Shown here piece by piece: positions 9,105-45,112 of a DNA stretch of 46,013 bases. Position 1 is the stretch's first letter. Every line of letters begins with the position of its first letter. The notes beneath the pieces were generated by a model. That model made no database searches and was not told the origin of the DNA. It was given only the letters and a program-made list of their open reading frames with translations. Source of the stretch: Planctomycetota bacterium (GTDB lineage Bacteria; Planctomycetota; Phycisphaerae; Phycisphaerales; Phycisphaeraceae). A program made the position numbers and the translations under genes. The stretch covers positions 1 through 46,013 of the forward strand of contig JAJRXX010000069.1 in assembly GCA_024276075.1 (NCBI GenBank), written 5' to 3'.

Positions 9105-9567
9105 AATCAGGCCTCCCAATGATCTGTGATACTTTCAAGCCGTTTGTCAGAGATCGTTTGACCCACGTTTCATCAATCGCTTAACCCCAACCTCGCCACC
9201 GACCGATAATCCGATCCTTGCATTACATGACAAACTGCAAAAGGTCGATAGTTTCTGATCGTTCAATACGATCGTCTTCTTTACACACAATTGCCTTTTT
9301 TGCTATAGGCTTTTGTCCTTAAGGTACTTCAGCCCACTCCCTAAAATCACCTGTCTGCACGATGTGGTGATACATGTCTTGTCCATGAAATGACGTGTTG
9401 TATCGTATTTTTTCGACGGCCCACGCCTACCCTTGCGCCTAAACCACAGCGCAAAGTGATTCAAAAGACTTTTGTTGTGTTTTTTTATTGGCCTCTCAGC
9501 GATACATCCCGCCATAGAAACCATCCCTACCGAAAACGGTCCTGTTTACGCTTATACCAATCAAGCT
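9105..9567. other. Intergenic region upstream of the first chemoreceptor
   Basis: About 460 bases with no gene I can support. A 73-codon minus-strand frame at 9303-9524 has no ribosome site or recognisable similarity. The sequence is richer in A and T than its neighbours and should hold the promoter for the minus-strand chemoreceptor. It is much longer than the equivalent gap upstream of the second receptor (12148-12424) and the two gaps look unrelated by eye, so it has diverged or been replaced since the duplication. Confidence 0.5.
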
Positions 9568-9764
9568 TAGAGCAACTTGCGTAATTATTCTCCATCTCCC
9601 CAAGAAGAAGGCAGGTCAATGACCTGCCCTACTCCAGAACTGACATGGCGATTATTTATGCAAGGTGCTCTAATACTTGCGCGGCATCTGCGAACGCGAA
9701 GACAAAACAGACAATAACTTACATCATTTACGACGCGCTAGAACTATACGCAATGCGCATTACA
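9551..9764 (-). repeat. Repeat family R2, copy c, interrupted by a MITE
   Basis: Reverse-oriented copy of the roughly 106-base R2 repeat seen whole at 28125-28230. From high to low coordinate it reads the near-palindrome around 9745-9760, then GCGCGTCGTAA, GATGTAAGTTATTG and CGCAAGTATTA. It is then split by a 105-base element (9568-9672) and resumes with TTGATTGGTATAAGCG. The insertion point is a TA that is single in the uninterrupted copy. Confidence 0.82.
9568..9672. mobile_element. Type A MITE, copy 1 (105 bp)
   Basis: Ends are TAGAGCAACTTGCGTAA and, inverted, TAGAGCACCTTGCATAA, so the terminal repeats match at 15 of 17 positions. TA bounds both sides, as for IS630/Tc1-type elements that duplicate TA. 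The centre has an internal palindrome GGCAGGTCAATGACCTGCC. It has no coding capacity. A second copy at 41951-42055 has the same length and differs at a single position (GACATGG versus GATATGG). It interrupts an R2 repeat. Confidence 0.9.
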
Positions 9765-39718: not shown

Positions 39719-40774
39719 CTATATCCCCTTCCACGAGCGTCGCTTGCGTTTGCTGGGCATGCGTTGGGCTAGGGCTTGGGTCAGGATCGGTAGCGCAATG
39801 GTCGCGTCGCAGTAGCACTGTGTGAAGCCGCCCTTGGGGTCTTCCTTGCCCCAGGAGACCGCTTCGTCGAACGTGCAGCCGCTCAAGCCACCCCACTGCG
39901 GTGAGTCGGTGGTGACCTGCACGGCGTACTTGTGGGGGTGGTACTGCTCGTCGGTGCCCAGTCTGACCTTGGGCTTGCGCCTGCCGGGGACCTGGTAGCC
40001 GGGGTACAGCAAACCCGCGGTCACAGCGAATAGCTGGATGAAGTCCTTGGGCACGCCGCCGCCGATGTAGATCACCCCGGTTTCAGCGACCTGCTCTGAG
40101 AGTTGCATGAACTGGACGTAGTCCTTGACGCCGTCGAGCACAAGGTCGAAGCCCTTGCTCTTGGCGATCAGCGCGGCGTCGCCGTAGGGGCTGTCGACGA
40201 TCGCGGGGCAGAAGACGGGGACCTTGTGCTTCGCAGCGACGCTGACGATTGATCTGATTTTCTTTTTGCCCAGCCACTTCCCGAAGCCATACAGGAACTC
40301 ACGAGACGAGTACCCGTGGCCCGACTTTAGCTCCAAGATGTATTTGGAGATCAGCTCCGTCATGTCCAGGTAGTCGTCTTCGCGGCCATACACGTCGTAG
40401 TAACGGTTGTACCCCTGCTCGAAGAGCGCCTCGTCGTCGGCGCGTGGGGTGCCCTGGATGTAGGGGTGGCCCATGGCGTCGACGATGTCCTCGCTGAGGT
40501 TGGCGCCCGTGCCGACGAGGATGTCCACGCAGCCGTTTTCGATGAGCCAATTGATGATCTCGTACTGGCCCGTGGTCGACAGCGAGCCTGCGTAGCCCAG
40601 CAGCACCGTGACCTTGGGGTCGCGCATCATCTTGACCAGGGTGTCGGCACATTGCGCCAGGCTCCTGCCCTGGAAGCCGGTCTTGCTCATGTCTTCGAGC
40701 AAGGCGGAGACCGAACGATTTTTCTTCACGCGGACCTGTTGGACCGGTGCACCTCGGAGTCTTTTTTTGGCCAT
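39719..40774 (-). CDS. Deoxyhypusine synthase-like protein
   Basis: 351 residues of the deoxyhypusine synthase family, with VLLGYAGSLSTTGQ, VDILVGTGANLSEDI, and the NAD-binding and active-site segment YIGGGVPKDFIQLFAV. The catalytic Lys of the eukaryotic enzyme aligns with Lys243. The end reads YAVQVTTDSPQWGGLSGCTFDEAVSWGK. In bacteria, which lack hypusine-modified eIF5A, relatives work in polyamine metabolism (for example homospermidine formation), so a polyamine role is likely but the exact product is not determinable. The ATG at 40774 follows GAGGG; 60 codons upstream are open but unlike the family. It stands alone with no polyamine genes next to it. Confidence 0.9.
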   Translation of the reverse strand: MAKKRLRGAPVQQVRVKKNRSVSALLEDMSKTGFQGRSLAQCADTLVKMMRDPKVTVLLGYAGSLSTTGQYEIINWLIENGCVDILVGTGANLSEDIVDAMGHPYIQGTPRADDEALFEQGYNRYYDVYGREDDYLDMTELISKYILELKSGHGYSSREFLYGFGKWLGKKKIRSIVSVAAKHKVPVFCPAIVDSPYGDAALIAKSKGFDLVLDGVKDYVQFMQLSEQVAETGVIYIGGGVPKDFIQLFAVTAGLLYPGYQVPGRRKPKVRLGTDEQYHPHKYAVQVTTDSPQWGGLSGCTFDEAVSWGKEDPKGGFTQCYCDATIALPILTQALAQRMPSKRKRRSWKGI

Positions 40775-40955
40775 GATTCCCTCTGCGTCGAGATGATTCG
40801 CTTGATCAAAACTTATTGTAAACACAGGCTCTACAAGCCCAGTCCCGGAGTGTACATCCTGGTCGTCGCTGTGCAAACCTTTGCTGTATAGGCTCGCAAA
40901 GCGGTAGTGGGTCAGTTTGAATATTTTTGCGGGAATTGTCGTTCGAGACGTCAAT

Positions 40956-41337: not shown

Positions 41338-41892
41338 ATGCCCACCGCGCATACTCGTCTCATCGCTGGGGCCTGCCTGGTGTTCGTGACCTCGCTGTCC
41401 GGCTGTTCTTCACACACATTCTTCGCTGCCAACAAGCTCGAGCCCTTCCATTTTGGGGATATCCTGCGTTTGCATACCTTTGCCGGAATCTTCCTTTCCA
41501 GTCAGCCTAAACCCGACGACTTCCGCCAAGCACAAAAGGCAGGGATCAAGACCATCGTAAGTCTACGGCTACCGGGTGAGGTCGCGGACTTCGACGAGCC
41601 CGCTCTCATCACCGAACTGGGCATGACCTACTACAACGTGGGTTTTGATGACTTTGCAACCCTCGACGAAGAAGTCCTGGACCGCGCACGGGCTCTGCTG
41701 AACCGCCACAATGAAAAGCCCATCCTCATCCACAGCGCTTCGGCGAACCGCGTCGGAGCCATCTGGCTGGCGTACCGTGCTATCGACCACCACGTCCCCT
41801 ACGACCAAGCGTTGGCCGAGGCAAAGGAAGTCGGGCTCAGATCACCCGCGTACGAACAGGTCGTCAGGCGATACGTCCAGCAACAACTCTGA
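41338..41892 (+). CDS. Phosphatase-like lipoprotein with Cys-to-Ser change (predicted inactive)
   Basis: 184 residues. Signal peptide with lipobox LSGC, so Cys23 should be lipidated. The rest is a dual-specificity phosphatase-like domain (DUF442/cysteine-phosphatase type), with IFLSSQPKPDDFRQAQKAGIKTIVSLRLPG and the P-loop HSASANRVG at 132-140. Ordinary members have H-C-x5-R; here the nucleophile Cys is Ser133 while Arg138 remains. The neighbouring paralog keeps Cys. The change is one base (AGC versus TGC). It may bind phosphorylated targets without hydrolysis. AAGGAG precedes the ATG. Confidence 0.9.
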   Translation: MPTAHTRLIAGACLVFVTSLSGCSSHTFFAANKLEPFHFGDILRLHTFAGIFLSSQPKPDDFRQAQKAGIKTIVSLRLPGEVADFDEPALITELGMTYYNVGFDDFATLDEEVLDRARALLNRHNEKPILIHSASANRVGAIWLAYRAIDHHVPYDQALAEAKEVGLRSPAYEQVVRRYVQQQL

Positions 41893-41904
41893 CACCCAAC
41901 CGAT

Positions 41905-42109
41905 TATACGCATTGCGTATATTTCTAGCGCTTCGATAGGTGATGTAAGTTAGAGCAACTTGCGTAATTATTCTCCATCTCCCCAAGAAGAAGGCAGGTC
42001 AATGACCTGCCCTACTCCAGAACTGATATGGCGATTATTTATGCAAGGTGCTCTAATGTCTGTTCTGTTCCCGTGTTTGCAGATGCTGCGCAAGTATTAA
42101 TCTTGATTG
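41905..42109 (+). repeat. Repeat family R2, copy b, interrupted by a MITE
   Basis: Same orientation as the copy at 28125-28230: begins with ATTATACGCATTGCGTATAT, includes GATGTAAGT, then is split by a 105-base type A MITE (41951-42055) and resumes with ATGTCTGTTCTGTTCC and GCGCAAGTATTAAT. In the unoccupied copy GATGTAAGTTATTGC has a single TA; here TA is found at each side of the insert. Confidence 0.86.
41951..42055. mobile_element. Type A MITE, copy 2 (105 bp)
   Basis: Differs from the copy at 9568-9672 at a single base and has the same terminal repeats TAGAGCAACTTGCGTAA and TAGAGCACCTTGCATAA. It stands in the opposite direction relative to R2 compared with copy 1, and at a different TA within R2. 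Confidence 0.92.
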
Positions 42110-42110
42110 T

Positions 42111-42191
42111 TGTAACAAACATCTGTATTTCACGGCTTGCAAGCAAGCCGTGCCACCCGGTCAATGAAGATTAATGACGCCATTTGCTCTA
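42111..42191. repeat. Repeat R3, copy b
   Basis: 81 bases, beginning TGTAACAAACATCTGTATTT and ending TTTGCTCTA. The centre is a perfect inverted repeat: CACGGCTTGC and GCAAGCCGTG around two bases. It follows directly after R2 copy b, so three families are stacked in the gap between the two lipoprotein genes. Confidence 0.85.
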
Positions 42192-42245
42192 AACTATACA
42201 TCTGTTCCGGGACCGTCCGCACTCTTTACACACTGAGGACCAACC

Positions 42246-42803
42246 ATGATGCGCATTGATCTACGCCGAATGACCATCGTCTACCTGCTGCTAACCACCA
42301 CCACCCTGATCGGCTGCGCCTCGCACACCGCCATCACCACCGACAAGCTCGAACCCTATGAGTGCGGCACCGTGACCCGGCTGCACACCTTCGGTGGCAT
42401 TTTCCTCGCCAGTCAGCCAAAGCCCGACGACTTCCGCCAAGCACAAAAGGGTGGTATCAAAACCGTCATCAACCTACGCCTACCGGGCGAGGTCACGGAC
42501 TTCGACGAGCCCGCCCTCATCGCCGAACTGGGTATGACCTACTACAACGTCCCCTTCAACGGGCCCGACATGCTCACCGACGAGGTGATCGACAACACAC
42601 GCGCCCTGCTCAACAACGACCAGATCAAACCCCTCCTCCTGCACTGCAGCTCCGCAAACCGCGTCGGTGCTATCTGGCTGGCGTATCGTGCCATCGACCA
42701 CGGCTTACCCTACAATCAGGCGCTGGCTGAAGCGAAGACCGTCGGGCTCAAATCACCCACCTACGAGCAGATCGTCAAGCGCTACATCGGACGCCACCAG
42801 TGA
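42246..42803 (+). CDS. Phosphatase-like lipoprotein with intact catalytic Cys
   Basis: 185 residues, paralog of the protein at 41338-41892 (about two residues in three match along the domain). Lipobox LIGC, so Cys24 is the lipid site. P-loop HCSSANRVG at 133-141 keeps nucleophile Cys134 and Arg139. A conserved acidic residue in the loop TDFDEPAL is a candidate general acid. It is predicted to be an envelope phosphatase; the substrate could be protein or a small phosphoester. GAGG precedes the ATG at 42246. Its last codon overlaps the GTG start of the SppA-like gene (GTGA), so the two are translationally coupled. Confidence 0.9.
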   Translation: MMRIDLRRMTIVYLLLTTTTLIGCASHTAITTDKLEPYECGTVTRLHTFGGIFLASQPKPDDFRQAQKGGIKTVINLRLPGEVTDFDEPALIAELGMTYYNVPFNGPDMLTDEVIDNTRALLNNDQIKPLLLHCSSANRVGAIWLAYRAIDHGLPYNQALAEAKTVGLKSPTYEQIVKRYIGRHQ

Positions 42804-43834
42804 TCTCTATCGAGCTTAACCACCACGCCCCTGTGCGTACCCGGCTATCGCACATCCTGGCGCTGTGCCTGGCACTGACAGGGTGCGGGCCTATGACCTT
42901 TATCGTGGGTATGTCACCCGGTGACCAGGCGATCAAGTCCACCGTGGTCGAGGACTCGGGGCGTTGGTTTAGCCCGCGCGTGGCGATCGTCGACGTCACC
43001 GGAACGATCGTAAACGCGCACCGTCGCGGGTTGATCTCACAAGGCGACAACCCCGTCGAGTTGCTCCATGAAAAGCTCGAAATGGCTCGCCGCGACCCCT
43101 CCGTTAAGGCCATTATCCTGCGCCTGAACACGCCCGGCGGGGGCGTCGGCGCCAGCCACACCATGTACGGCATGCTCGGGCGGTTTAAGAAACAGTCCGC
43201 CAAGCCCGTCGTCGCGCTCATGATGGACGTCGCCGCCAGCGGTGGGTACTACCTCGCTTGTGGGGCCGATACCATCGTGGCCTACCCGACGACCATCACC
43301 GGCTCCATCGGTGTGATTGTGCAAACCATCAGCCTCAAGCCCGCGATGGACCGCATCGGCATCCATACCGAGGCGTTCACCACCGGCCCCAATAAGGACG
43401 CCGGCTCACCGCTGAGCACACTCACCGACGAACACCGGGCTGTGCTGCGCACACTGATCGACGATTTTTATCAGCGGTTTCTTGACGTGGTGCGTCAGGC
43501 CCGACCAAACATCCCGCCCGATCGGTTCGCCCAAGCTACCGATGGCCGCGTGGTCACGGGTGGTGATGCGCTCGATTTGGGCTTGGTCGACCATATCGGC
43601 GACCTCTATACCGCCTTCGATTTAGCCCAGCAGTTAGCCGGGATCGAGCACGCCGACCTGATCCTCTACCACCGTCCCATGCAGCACGTCGCCTCTCCCT
43701 ACGCCTTGGCACCGACCTCCCACATGTCCGCTGCGACCCAAACCCAGATCAACCTGGCACAATTTAATTTCACCGGCTCACTGGCACGACCGGCGGTGCA
43801 ATTCTACTATCTCTGGCAGCCACAGTTACCGTAA
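42800..43834 (+). CDS. SppA-like (S49) signal-peptide peptidase lipoprotein
   Basis: 344 residues with a GTG start at 42800 that overlaps the previous stop. Signal peptide and lipobox LTGC (Cys29). The S49 peptidase domain has a Ser/Lys dyad: Ser147 in DVAASGGYYLA and Lys199 in TGPNKDAGSPL. It has the fold markers LNTPGGGVGASHTMY and TGSIGV. SppA enzymes degrade cleaved signal peptides or membrane-anchored proteins. Here the enzyme is itself lipid-anchored, unlike the TM-anchored E. coli form, so it probably acts on the periplasmic side. The coupling with a lipoprotein phosphatase is unusual. Confidence 0.9.
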   Translation: MISIELNHHAPVRTRLSHILALCLALTGCGPMTFIVGMSPGDQAIKSTVVEDSGRWFSPRVAIVDVTGTIVNAHRRGLISQGDNPVELLHEKLEMARRDPSVKAIILRLNTPGGGVGASHTMYGMLGRFKKQSAKPVVALMMDVAASGGYYLACGADTIVAYPTTITGSIGVIVQTISLKPAMDRIGIHTEAFTTGPNKDAGSPLSTLTDEHRAVLRTLIDDFYQRFLDVVRQARPNIPPDRFAQATDGRVVTGGDALDLGLVDHIGDLYTAFDLAQQLAGIEHADLILYHRPMQHVASPYALAPTSHMSAATQTQINLAQFNFTGSLARPAVQFYYLWQPQLP

Positions 43835-44002
43835 TCGGGACCCGGCTGTGCACCCTAGACCGGTGCCACAGCCCGACGGCGTACCCGTGACAAAATTTCA
43901 CCACAACCGCCGATACCAATCACCCGCCCTACACCCACGAGAGGGGCCCCGAGCCACCCCACACCGTAACCCGTGCCACCCGCCACACCGAGGACGCTAT
44001 CC

Positions 44003-45112
44003 ATGGAATCGCTGGAGCTAACCTGTCCATTCTGCGACAAGCTCCTGGTCCTCGACGCCGGGTTTGCAGGCGGTGTCTGCCGATGCTCAAACTGCGGCAT
44101 GCTCATGCAGGTGCCCGCTTCCCCATCGACCAAACGACGATCAACCCGCACCCGTCCCGATCGTCCCGACACACCCCGCTCATCGAAGCCCTCCACCAAG
44201 CCCGTCGTCGAAGCTCAGGTTGACCGCGACCCGCCGGCACCGCCACCCGCTGTTTCAAAAAAACGATCCACCCCCAACAAATCTGCCAAGCGCACCACCA
44301 AACCCAAACGCCAACACACCCCAACGCCTCCACCCAGCGCCCCCAAACCTCCGGATAAAAAAACCACTCTCACACCCGCTCAGACACATGCCGTAGAGCG
44401 TGCCAAGGGCAAACGCCACCTGGCGATCCAGGTCTCGCTGATCGCCGCTTTTGTAGCCATCATTGCGATGAGTGTATTAGCTATCACCGCTGTCGTTCGG
44501 CATCAGATACGCCACGCCACCCCCAAGAACAACACCCCTGGGCTCGTCGTTAAGTTTGATTACGACTCAACGGCCAACCCTTATCTCATGGACAAACCCA
44601 ACGTCCTGGGCATCCCCCTGAGCCCGCGCACTGTCGTCGTAATCGACGCCTCTTCAGCAAGCAGAAAATGGCTGGGGCTGGTCAAAGACGCGATCCTCGC
44701 GGGCAGTAACTTCGACACCTCCGCCGTCACCCTGATGCTCGTCGTCGGCACGGAGGACCGTCAAGCGGTTTTCCCAGAGTCTTTTACCAAGCTCATCCGT
44801 CTGCCTCGTGAGGACCTGCGCACCTTTCTCAACAGCATCCTCGCGTTCGGCGTGACCGACCCCGTCAACGCCGTCCGCACCGCCCTGACGACAAAGCCCG
44901 ATCAGTTCGTCCTTATCACCAGCCAGGAACTGCCCCGCGAACATGTCAACGCCATACGAGGCCTACTCAAAGCTTCCCCCAGCACACGGTTTGATGCTGT
45001 ACTGATCGACGCCCAGGCGATCGACCTGCTGTCCATCACCAGCTTGCGCGGCGGGCAATACATCACACTCTCCACGCAGCAAATCACGGATTGGCGATAC
45101 GCTAACCAGTGA
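44003..45112 (+). CDS. Zinc-ribbon, single-TM protein with a VWA-like C-terminal domain
   Basis: 369 residues. A short N-terminal zinc ribbon (Cys8, Cys11, Cys28, Cys31 with a further Cys26) is followed by a Lys/Pro/Thr-rich linker to about 130, a membrane helix at 142-166, then a domain that opens VVVIDASSASRKWLGLVKDAI and includes LMLVVGTEDRQAV and FVLITSQELP, like a von Willebrand A fold with the usual metal-site Asp-x-Ser-x-Ser. No named family was recognised. The ATG at 44003 follows GAGGA. The linker suggests a tether between cytoplasm and an outside VWA-like sensor. Confidence 0.8.
   Translation: MESLELTCPFCDKLLVLDAGFAGGVCRCSNCGMLMQVPASPSTKRRSTRTRPDRPDTPRSSKPSTKPVVEAQVDRDPPAPPPAVSKKRSTPNKSAKRTTKPKRQHTPTPPPSAPKPPDKKTTLTPAQTHAVERAKGKRHLAIQVSLIAAFVAIIAMSVLAITAVVRHQIRHATPKNNTPGLVVKFDYDSTANPYLMDKPNVLGIPLSPRTVVVIDASSASRKWLGLVKDAILAGSNFDTSAVTLMLVVGTEDRQAVFPESFTKLIRLPREDLRTFLNSILAFGVTDPVNAVRTALTTKPDQFVLITSQELPREHVNAIRGLLKASPSTRFDAVLIDAQAIDLLSITSLRGGQYITLSTQQITDWRYANQ

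Follow-up and report, generated by a model that had tools for sequence, protein, structure and literature searches.

The window analyzed here is a 46,013-nucleotide stretch that makes up one contig of the 2.88-Mb, 77-contig genome of a Planctomycetota bacterium of the family Phycisphaeraceae. It carries two neighboring genes for paralogous predicted lipoproteins with a domain of the dual-specificity phosphatase (DSP) fold, here called SER and CYS after the residue at the catalytic position, and directly downstream of them a gene for a lipoprotein peptidase of the S49 (SppA) type (Table 1). Judging by sequence, we see about an even chance that SER is a retained lipid-anchored pseudoenzyme that arose by duplication of CYS and binds an oxyanion ligand or a partner, that CYS is catalytically competent, and that the S49 peptidase is independent of both. 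Recurrence of the Ser in a distant planctomycete genus suggests that the Ser form is a real non-catalytic protein.

According to this reading, SER would stem from an enzyme-type gene, CYS, that was duplicated in the Phycisphaeraceae lineage of the window. Its fold, P-loop backbone and P-loop arginine (the oxyanion pocket) would have been preserved, while the catalytic thiol would have gone and so, at the same time or independently, would the second cysteine found in CYS. SER would then have been retained by selection. At the envelope it may bind a protein partner or a ligand with an oxyanion group (phosphate, a phosphoprotein or a sulfur oxyanion), probably with little or no turnover, and act as a receptor, scaffold or decoy. 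CYS would be the catalytically competent copy, with phosphatase or sulfur-transferase chemistry. A repeated and conserved Cys-to-Ser change in an envelope family, accompanied in one case by an adjacent enzyme-type paralogue, provides a natural matched pair for seeking the ligand of a largely uncharacterised family.

The two lipoproteins differ at the catalytic position of the P-loop

SER and CYS are 68% identical over 160 codons and form a sister pair (support 100/99) in a tree of 18 rows, comprising 17 Cys-bearing proteins and SER; L006 (cut before the P-loop), L025, L013 and L040 were omitted from this tree, and it also lacks L049 and L050, which the motif filter did not pick up. The original prediction had placed three open reading frames (ORFs) here, the first two encoding paralogous lipoproteins with a phosphatase-like domain, and this is borne out. 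It also holds that the catalytic Cys of the first has been replaced by Ser while the P-loop Arg was kept: HSASANR in SER (41731-41751, Ser133 codon AGC) stands against HCSSANR in CYS (42642-42662, Cys134 codon TGC). By eye, all three proteins have lipobox-like cysteines (C23 in SER, C24 in CYS and C29 in the S49 peptidase), from which lipidation is predicted. The window genome holds no homologue of CYS at E≤0.01 beyond SER and CYS themselves.

To the Pfam family PF04273 (DUF442 / BLH_phosphatase) CYS scored 26.1 bits, which is exactly the gathering score. For SER, PF04273 was absent from the Pfam matches at E≤0.1 and no family cut-off was passed, the sub-threshold scores including 20.9 bits for Tc-R-P and 13.6 bits for Y_phosphatase2 (cut-off 27 for each). 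The kinship of SER to the DUF442 family is therefore drawn from its identity to CYS and from its fold. AlphaFold models were built from five-row alignments. The CYS model (predicted local distance difference test, pLDDT, 82.6; below 50 at residues 42-44) matched the DUF442 structure 3gxh at rank 1 in the PDB, TpbA (4r0s) at rank 5 and NMA1982 (2f46) at rank 11. For the SER model (pLDDT 81.4), ranks 1-3 were taken by the DUF442 structures 3gxh/3gxg and rank 5 by the C132S form of TpbA (4r0t). In these models both proteins take the DSP fold, with a DUF442 structure as the best match.

The P-loop of both copies has the C(X)4R form found in NMA1982 (C-R-T-G-T-R) and DUF442 proteins, and not the classical C(X)5R form. 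CYS carries this P-loop complete, and SER, with Ser133, lacks the catalytic Cys of the DUF442 / BLH_phosphatase family.

The Cys-to-Ser change recurs in a distant genus

Within the window's own taxonomic family, homologues (E≤1e-12) were found at 15 places in 11 of 51 genomes. The P-loop was visible at 14 of these places, with Cys at 13 and Ser only in the window's SER. The pattern H-[Cys/Ser/Thr-like]-x-S-A/G-N-R-V-G matched in 14 of 397 genomes of the class, 19 of 392 genomes of the phylum and 29 of 170 genomes in the taxonomic family of the new match described below. At class level, once five genomes with ORFs unlike the protein family had been dropped (G129, G183, G184, G204 and G257), Ser was found in the window only. 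The phylum and family pattern searches, on the other hand, returned the identical HSASANRVG in three species (G783, G807 and G809), all of one genus, g345. Pooling the class, phylum and family searches gave 44 distinct confirmed homologues with Cys and four with Ser, the partial L132 being counted. The idea that Ser is unique to the window strain, which had looked true among the 397 class genomes and the 51 family genomes, was thus overturned by the phylum search, and the Ser on which the original prediction turned is conserved beyond one strain.

The Ser-bearing genes of g345 are under purifying selection. The ratio of nonsynonymous to synonymous divergence (dN/dS) is 0.09-0.12 between pairs of the three Ser species. 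For four Cys-Cys pairs within the genus it is 0.08-0.15, and each Ser species compared with the Cys congener G814 gives 0.14-0.19. Two of the three Ser-bearing assemblies are single contigs and the third has 80 contigs. The Ser protein is single-copy in each of the three species, and by eye its signal peptide looks cleavable and has no lipobox.

The Ser codons of G783, G807 and G809 are TCT, TCA and AGT, where congeners have TGT (Cys). No single base change links TCN to AGY codons, and a history with two separate Cys-to-Ser changes within g345 is therefore shorter than one with a single change. The three proteins nevertheless form a clade with support of 99/96, so the change may have occurred once or twice in this genus.

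When the catalytic codon was left free in the search of the 392 phylum and 170 family genomes, confirmed homologues had Cys or Ser only, and no other loss state (Ala, Gly, Asp etc.) was found among them. This pattern needs a His before the catalytic codon and an S-A-N-R-V-G-like frame after it, and so misses other P-loops; two homologues outside it, L049 (KCGSANRVA) and L050 (KCGSSNRVG), both keep the Cys. The extra free-codon matches L170-L181 had no tblastn match to the protein family, and those in G912, G926 and G931 are matches to the motif only, with no locus.

Taken together with SER, these data lead us to a tentative proposal, whose chance we put somewhat short of even: envelope pseudophosphatases may have arisen recurrently in the C(X)4R DSP family of Planctomycetota, Cys having changed to Ser on two or more occasions (codon parsimony would allow three) and having been fixed as a ligand-binding non-catalytic protein, once beside an active paralogue and once replacing it.

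SER is not a recent copy and has kept most invariant residues

Between SER and CYS, dN is 0.227 and dS 0.948 (dN/dS 0.24). This dS is close to that between CYS and its orthologue in the relative OFTM12 (1.06), so the SER copy is not recent. When neutral evolution was simulated in a simple way to half the dS observed, 99% of the simulated sequences acquired a stop; with a dN/dS of 0.24, this indicates that SER is not decaying freely. Eighteen positions are invariant in the 17 Cys-bearing rows of the tree, and SER keeps 17 of them, the one changed being the catalytic Cys. Among the 13 Cys rows of the clade to which SER belongs, 26 positions do not vary; SER differs at three of these (A55S, C134S and I181V) and keeps the P-loop Arg. 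SER thus combines loss of the catalytic residue with retention of the fold and of most invariant residues, as is characteristic of a pseudoenzyme.

Several observations weigh against the pseudoenzyme reading, and some of them favor an alternative that we consider fairly unlikely, namely that SER is a duplicate under relaxed constraint heading to loss, its Ser being one of many drifting changes. Measured against the orthologue in OFTM12, 36 residues are specific to the SER lineage and five to that of CYS (chi2 23.4); the lineage-specific changes number 23 and one, respectively, at second codon positions and 31 and 14 at third codon positions, and the branch lengths in the tree are 0.49 and 0. 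The dN/dS of SER is also about twice that of the Ser clade in g345. Because SER evolves fast in these respects, a partial relaxation of constraint is possible. Moreover, the SER copy occurs in one genome only, among searched relatives that include no genome of the same genus. What argues against a drift to loss is that the ORF and lipobox of SER are intact at this dS of about 0.95 and dN/dS of 0.24, that the change among the family-invariant positions is confined to the catalytic Cys, and that the same change is kept in another genus at a dN/dS of about 0.1.

Three further points count against the pseudoenzyme reading. In g345 no close Cys paralogue of the Ser protein was found, only distant DSP-like genes at 27-30% identity (17 genomes, 11 with matches), so acting as a decoy for CYS cannot be a general role. 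D108 of CYS aligns with the acid D71 of NMA1982 (phmmer alignment) and SER has A107 there; this position varies in the clade (D/E/A/T), so its loss in SER says little. Finally, both the binding and the inactivity of SER are argued from sequence and by analogy.

The analogy bears on a second alternative, that SER is still a slow enzyme with Ser133 as the nucleophile or another residue doing the chemistry. We regard this as improbable. Consistent with it, where the Cys has been lost only Ser was found among the confirmed homologues, and Ser has a hydroxyl. In addition, the report on TpbA describes crystals of the C132S form in which added phosphotyrosine (pTyr) was found dephosphorylated, though the mutant was reported inactive (PMC4409338); a Cys-to-Ser form therefore need not be wholly dead, which again weakens the case for a pseudoenzyme, and the authors remark that such mutants may not be ideal for isolating substrates. 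NMA1982, however, is the closer C(X)4R enzyme, and its C95S form, altered at the nucleophile in the equivalent position, is reported to have had no detectable activity at up to 60 uM (PMC10716126). It is from this result that the inactivity of SER is inferred. Moreover, a single base change turns TGT/TGC into a Ser codon, and no other residue is as isosteric with Cys, so that finding Ser does not by itself point to catalysis.

That the Ser in SER stems from a fault in the assembly or the reads was considered and judged unlikely, given the 36 lineage-specific changes in SER and the same residue in another genus.

Possible chemistry of CYS

The label "phosphatase" is unproven for CYS, which by analogy could be a phosphatase or a sulfur transferase. 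NMA1982, a C(X)4R DUF442 relative, is described as a weak phosphatase (PMC10716126) and the DUF442 domain of Blh as a sulfur transferase (PMC5823870). The best NCBIfam match of CYS by E-value is the "sulfur transferase" family TIGR01244, at 36.7 bits for CYS and 20.4 bits for SER, both under the cut-off of 85.85.

These matches bring in the possibility of an envelope sulfur/redox pair, in which CYS would use Cys134, and perhaps Cys40, for sulfur transfer or redox sensing and SER would be a thiol-less binding variant. We hold this to be unlikely rather than remote, and it is compatible with SER being a pseudoenzyme. Besides the TIGR01244 match and the activity described for Blh, it draws on the cysteines: Cys40 of CYS is Phe in SER, and SER thus lacks both non-lipid cysteines of CYS. 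This joint loss is at best a hint: judged from the raw substitution rate, it has a probability of about 0.10 of arising by chance. A lower value of 0.013 (34 of 39 kept) was set aside, as it came from ten rows chosen for having Cys40, with invariance built in, and the inference of a Cys40-Cys134 pair from the joint loss is weakened accordingly. Nor is Cys40 a rule in the family, since it is absent, with the catalytic Cys of the HC motif present, from L007 and L028 in the clade of the window pair and from L008-L011 outside it.

Neighboring genes point in more than one direction. Domains were scanned in ten hand-picked proteins. Near the Cys gene lie a universal stress protein, a tRNA-editing-domain protein, HSP20 and a LuxR-type regulator in G430, a ferritin-like protein in G431 and a double universal stress protein in PHYC, while the surroundings of the Ser gene in G783 include, at a distance of about 5-6 kb, another DUF442 gene and a rhodanese/metallo-beta-lactamase gene. 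Such stress and sulfur genes fit a sulfur/redox role. The neighbors of other relatives are unrelated to it, as for the sigma factor and GH17 protein near the Cys gene of PL25a.

DUF442-type domains were also seen in longer proteins. In L040 / L095 (8569-9909), an HCGSANR domain is fused to an S-adenosylmethionine (SAM) methyltransferase domain. By eye, an ORF in L026 seems to hold a pair of rhodanese-like regions ahead of a DUF442-type domain that has HCASGGR, and L013 has an HCRTGNR domain within a longer protein that carries a CxxCH haem-like motif.

Comparison with known systems

Most pseudophosphatases described so far are eukaryotic; STYX is one example. PTPRU, described as a redox-sensitive pseudophosphatase, is a eukaryotic protein that resembles SER in having a protein tyrosine phosphatase (PTP) fold with catalysis lost, but it belongs to another sequence family and another cell compartment. 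A limited search of open-access literature found no bacterial PTP-fold pseudophosphatase among the entries listed. The variant described here is bacterial and located at the envelope, and its Ser is a naturally occurring one in the DUF442/DSP fold, of convergent origin.

NMA1982 (2f46) and other C(X)4R proteins of DUF442 (PF04273) share the fold, the P-loop and most of the domain alignment with the window proteins, which differ in their added lipobox-like signals and, for SER, in having Ser for the nucleophile and Ala at the D71 position. TIGR01244 and the DUF442 sulfur transferase of Blh belong to the same superfamily as CYS, but CYS scores far below their cut-offs and is without the fused dioxygenase domain. 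TpbA of Pseudomonas aeruginosa (4r0s/4r0t) is an envelope protein of the DSP fold whose laboratory C132S form resembles the natural state of SER; unlike SER, it is an active enzyme with a longer HCXXXXXR loop, is described as secreted to the periplasm and has about 20% identity in the fold match. The window peptidase shares the S49 domain and the aligned Ser and Lys with SppA / Protease 4 (3bez, 4kwb and 3rst), and is set apart as a predicted lipoprotein with a conserved C-G-P start motif and a vWA-like neighbor.

The S49 peptidase belongs to a different conserved neighborhood

Table 1. Features of the window around the SER and CYS genes.
Feature	Position	Strand	Basis
SER: lipoprotein, C(X)4R-type DSP-fold domain, 184 aa, Ser133 in place of the catalytic Cys	41338..41892	+	ORF, P-loop, fold model
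Spacer SER-CYS, 353 bp, largely genome-wide repeats	41893..42245	+	Repeat comparison
CYS: paralogous lipoprotein, 185 aa, intact HCSSANR P-loop, second cysteine Cys40	42246..42803	+	ORF, PF04273, fold model
S49 (SppA-type) lipoprotein, 344 aa, Ser147 and Lys199 present, start uncertain	42800..43834	+	NCBIfam SppA_dom, alignment
Zinc-ribbon / transmembrane / vWA-like protein, usual neighbor of the S49 lipoprotein; alternative start exists	44003..45112	+	Domain names by eye
Deoxyhypusine-synthase-like gene, divergent from SER/CYS	39719..40954	-	PF01916, 289 bits

As originally predicted, the third gene encodes a putatively lipid-anchored S49 peptidase: it passes the cut-off of NCBIfam SppA_dom (TIGR00706; 187.1 versus 155.45 bits). 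In an alignment with E. coli Protease 4, Ser147 falls opposite the SGGY Ser and Lys199 opposite the GTYK Lys, which we take to be catalytic. The original prediction went on to suggest an envelope control circuit of the three proteins, in which the inactive member binds or protects the substrate; in the form weighed here, SER would protect or present a substrate shared by CYS and the S49 protease within one complex. Such a circuit is possible, but we think it very improbable. One part of the prediction is supported, namely that a single envelope family supplies both a member that looks active and one that looks inactive. In favor of the circuit are the adjacency of the genes, their common lipobox-like signals and a 4-base overlap in which the GTG start of the peptidase overlaps the TGA of CYS. 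Also, the CYS-type gene, S49 and the vWA-like gene are syntenic in OFTM12 (L029/L082), where the order is deoxyhypusine synthase, CYS, S49 and vWA-like, the deoxyhypusine-synthase-like gene keeping the same position.

The comparative data gave no support to the circuit. OFTM12 has a single copy, with Cys. The S49 lipoprotein matches strongly (best E≤1e-60) in 46 of the 51 family genomes, the window genome among them, and some of these matches are cut by contig ends. Neighbors were counted within 1.5 kb of the 30 best-matching S49 loci (L052-L081 among the labels). A phosphatase homologue was found at only two of them, the window and OFTM12, and both SER and CYS only in the window; among the genomes searched, no second one with both copies was found. 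No match to the window SppA (E≤1e-3, ORFs of at least 100 aa) was found in seven g345 stretches (six 17.5 kb long, one 12.5 kb); these cover the three Ser species, each with flanks of about 8 kb on both sides of the gene. We therefore rejected a conserved SER-CYS-S49 cassette, and the three-gene neighborhood is not kept in the relatives searched. On the reading that we favor, the gene for the S49 peptidase is independent of the pair, widespread in the family and downstream of CYS by chance.

Translational coupling of CYS and the peptidase, as first proposed, is uncertain: an alternative in-frame GTG occurs about 33 bases downstream of the GTG at 42800 (by eye) and the two genes of OFTM12 are about 41 bases apart if the longest ORF is taken.

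At the 30 best S49 loci the peptidase has a conserved context of its own. The lipobox-like cysteine is followed by G-P (C-G-P) at 29 of them and by S-P (C-S-P) at L075, and a zinc-ribbon/vWA-like match lies beside the peptidase at 21, with the zinc-ribbon part only at L067 and L081. The window's S49 lipoprotein and zinc-ribbon/vWA-like genes (42800-45112) thus represent a pair that recurs in the family, possibly a more systematic envelope-protease module. The protein at 44003..45112 matched no Pfam family at cut-off.

The spacer between SER and CYS, repeat-rich and with a strong palindrome, also speaks against a single circuit. A scan bearing on co-transcription of SER with CYS gave two promoter-like sites beside a shuffle mean of 1.3 and one terminator-like site beside a shuffle mean of 2.1. 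The palindrome is a 107-bp element resembling a miniature inverted-repeat transposable element (MITE), with ends TTAGAGCA...TGCTCTAA, found at 41950-42056 and 9567-9673 and at no fewer than 38 further places in the 2.88-Mb genome (40 of 327 candidates scored). Its copies are 94-99% identical, which points to recent spread. A second spacer repeat of about 81 bp (42111-42191) has several full or partial copies elsewhere in the genome.

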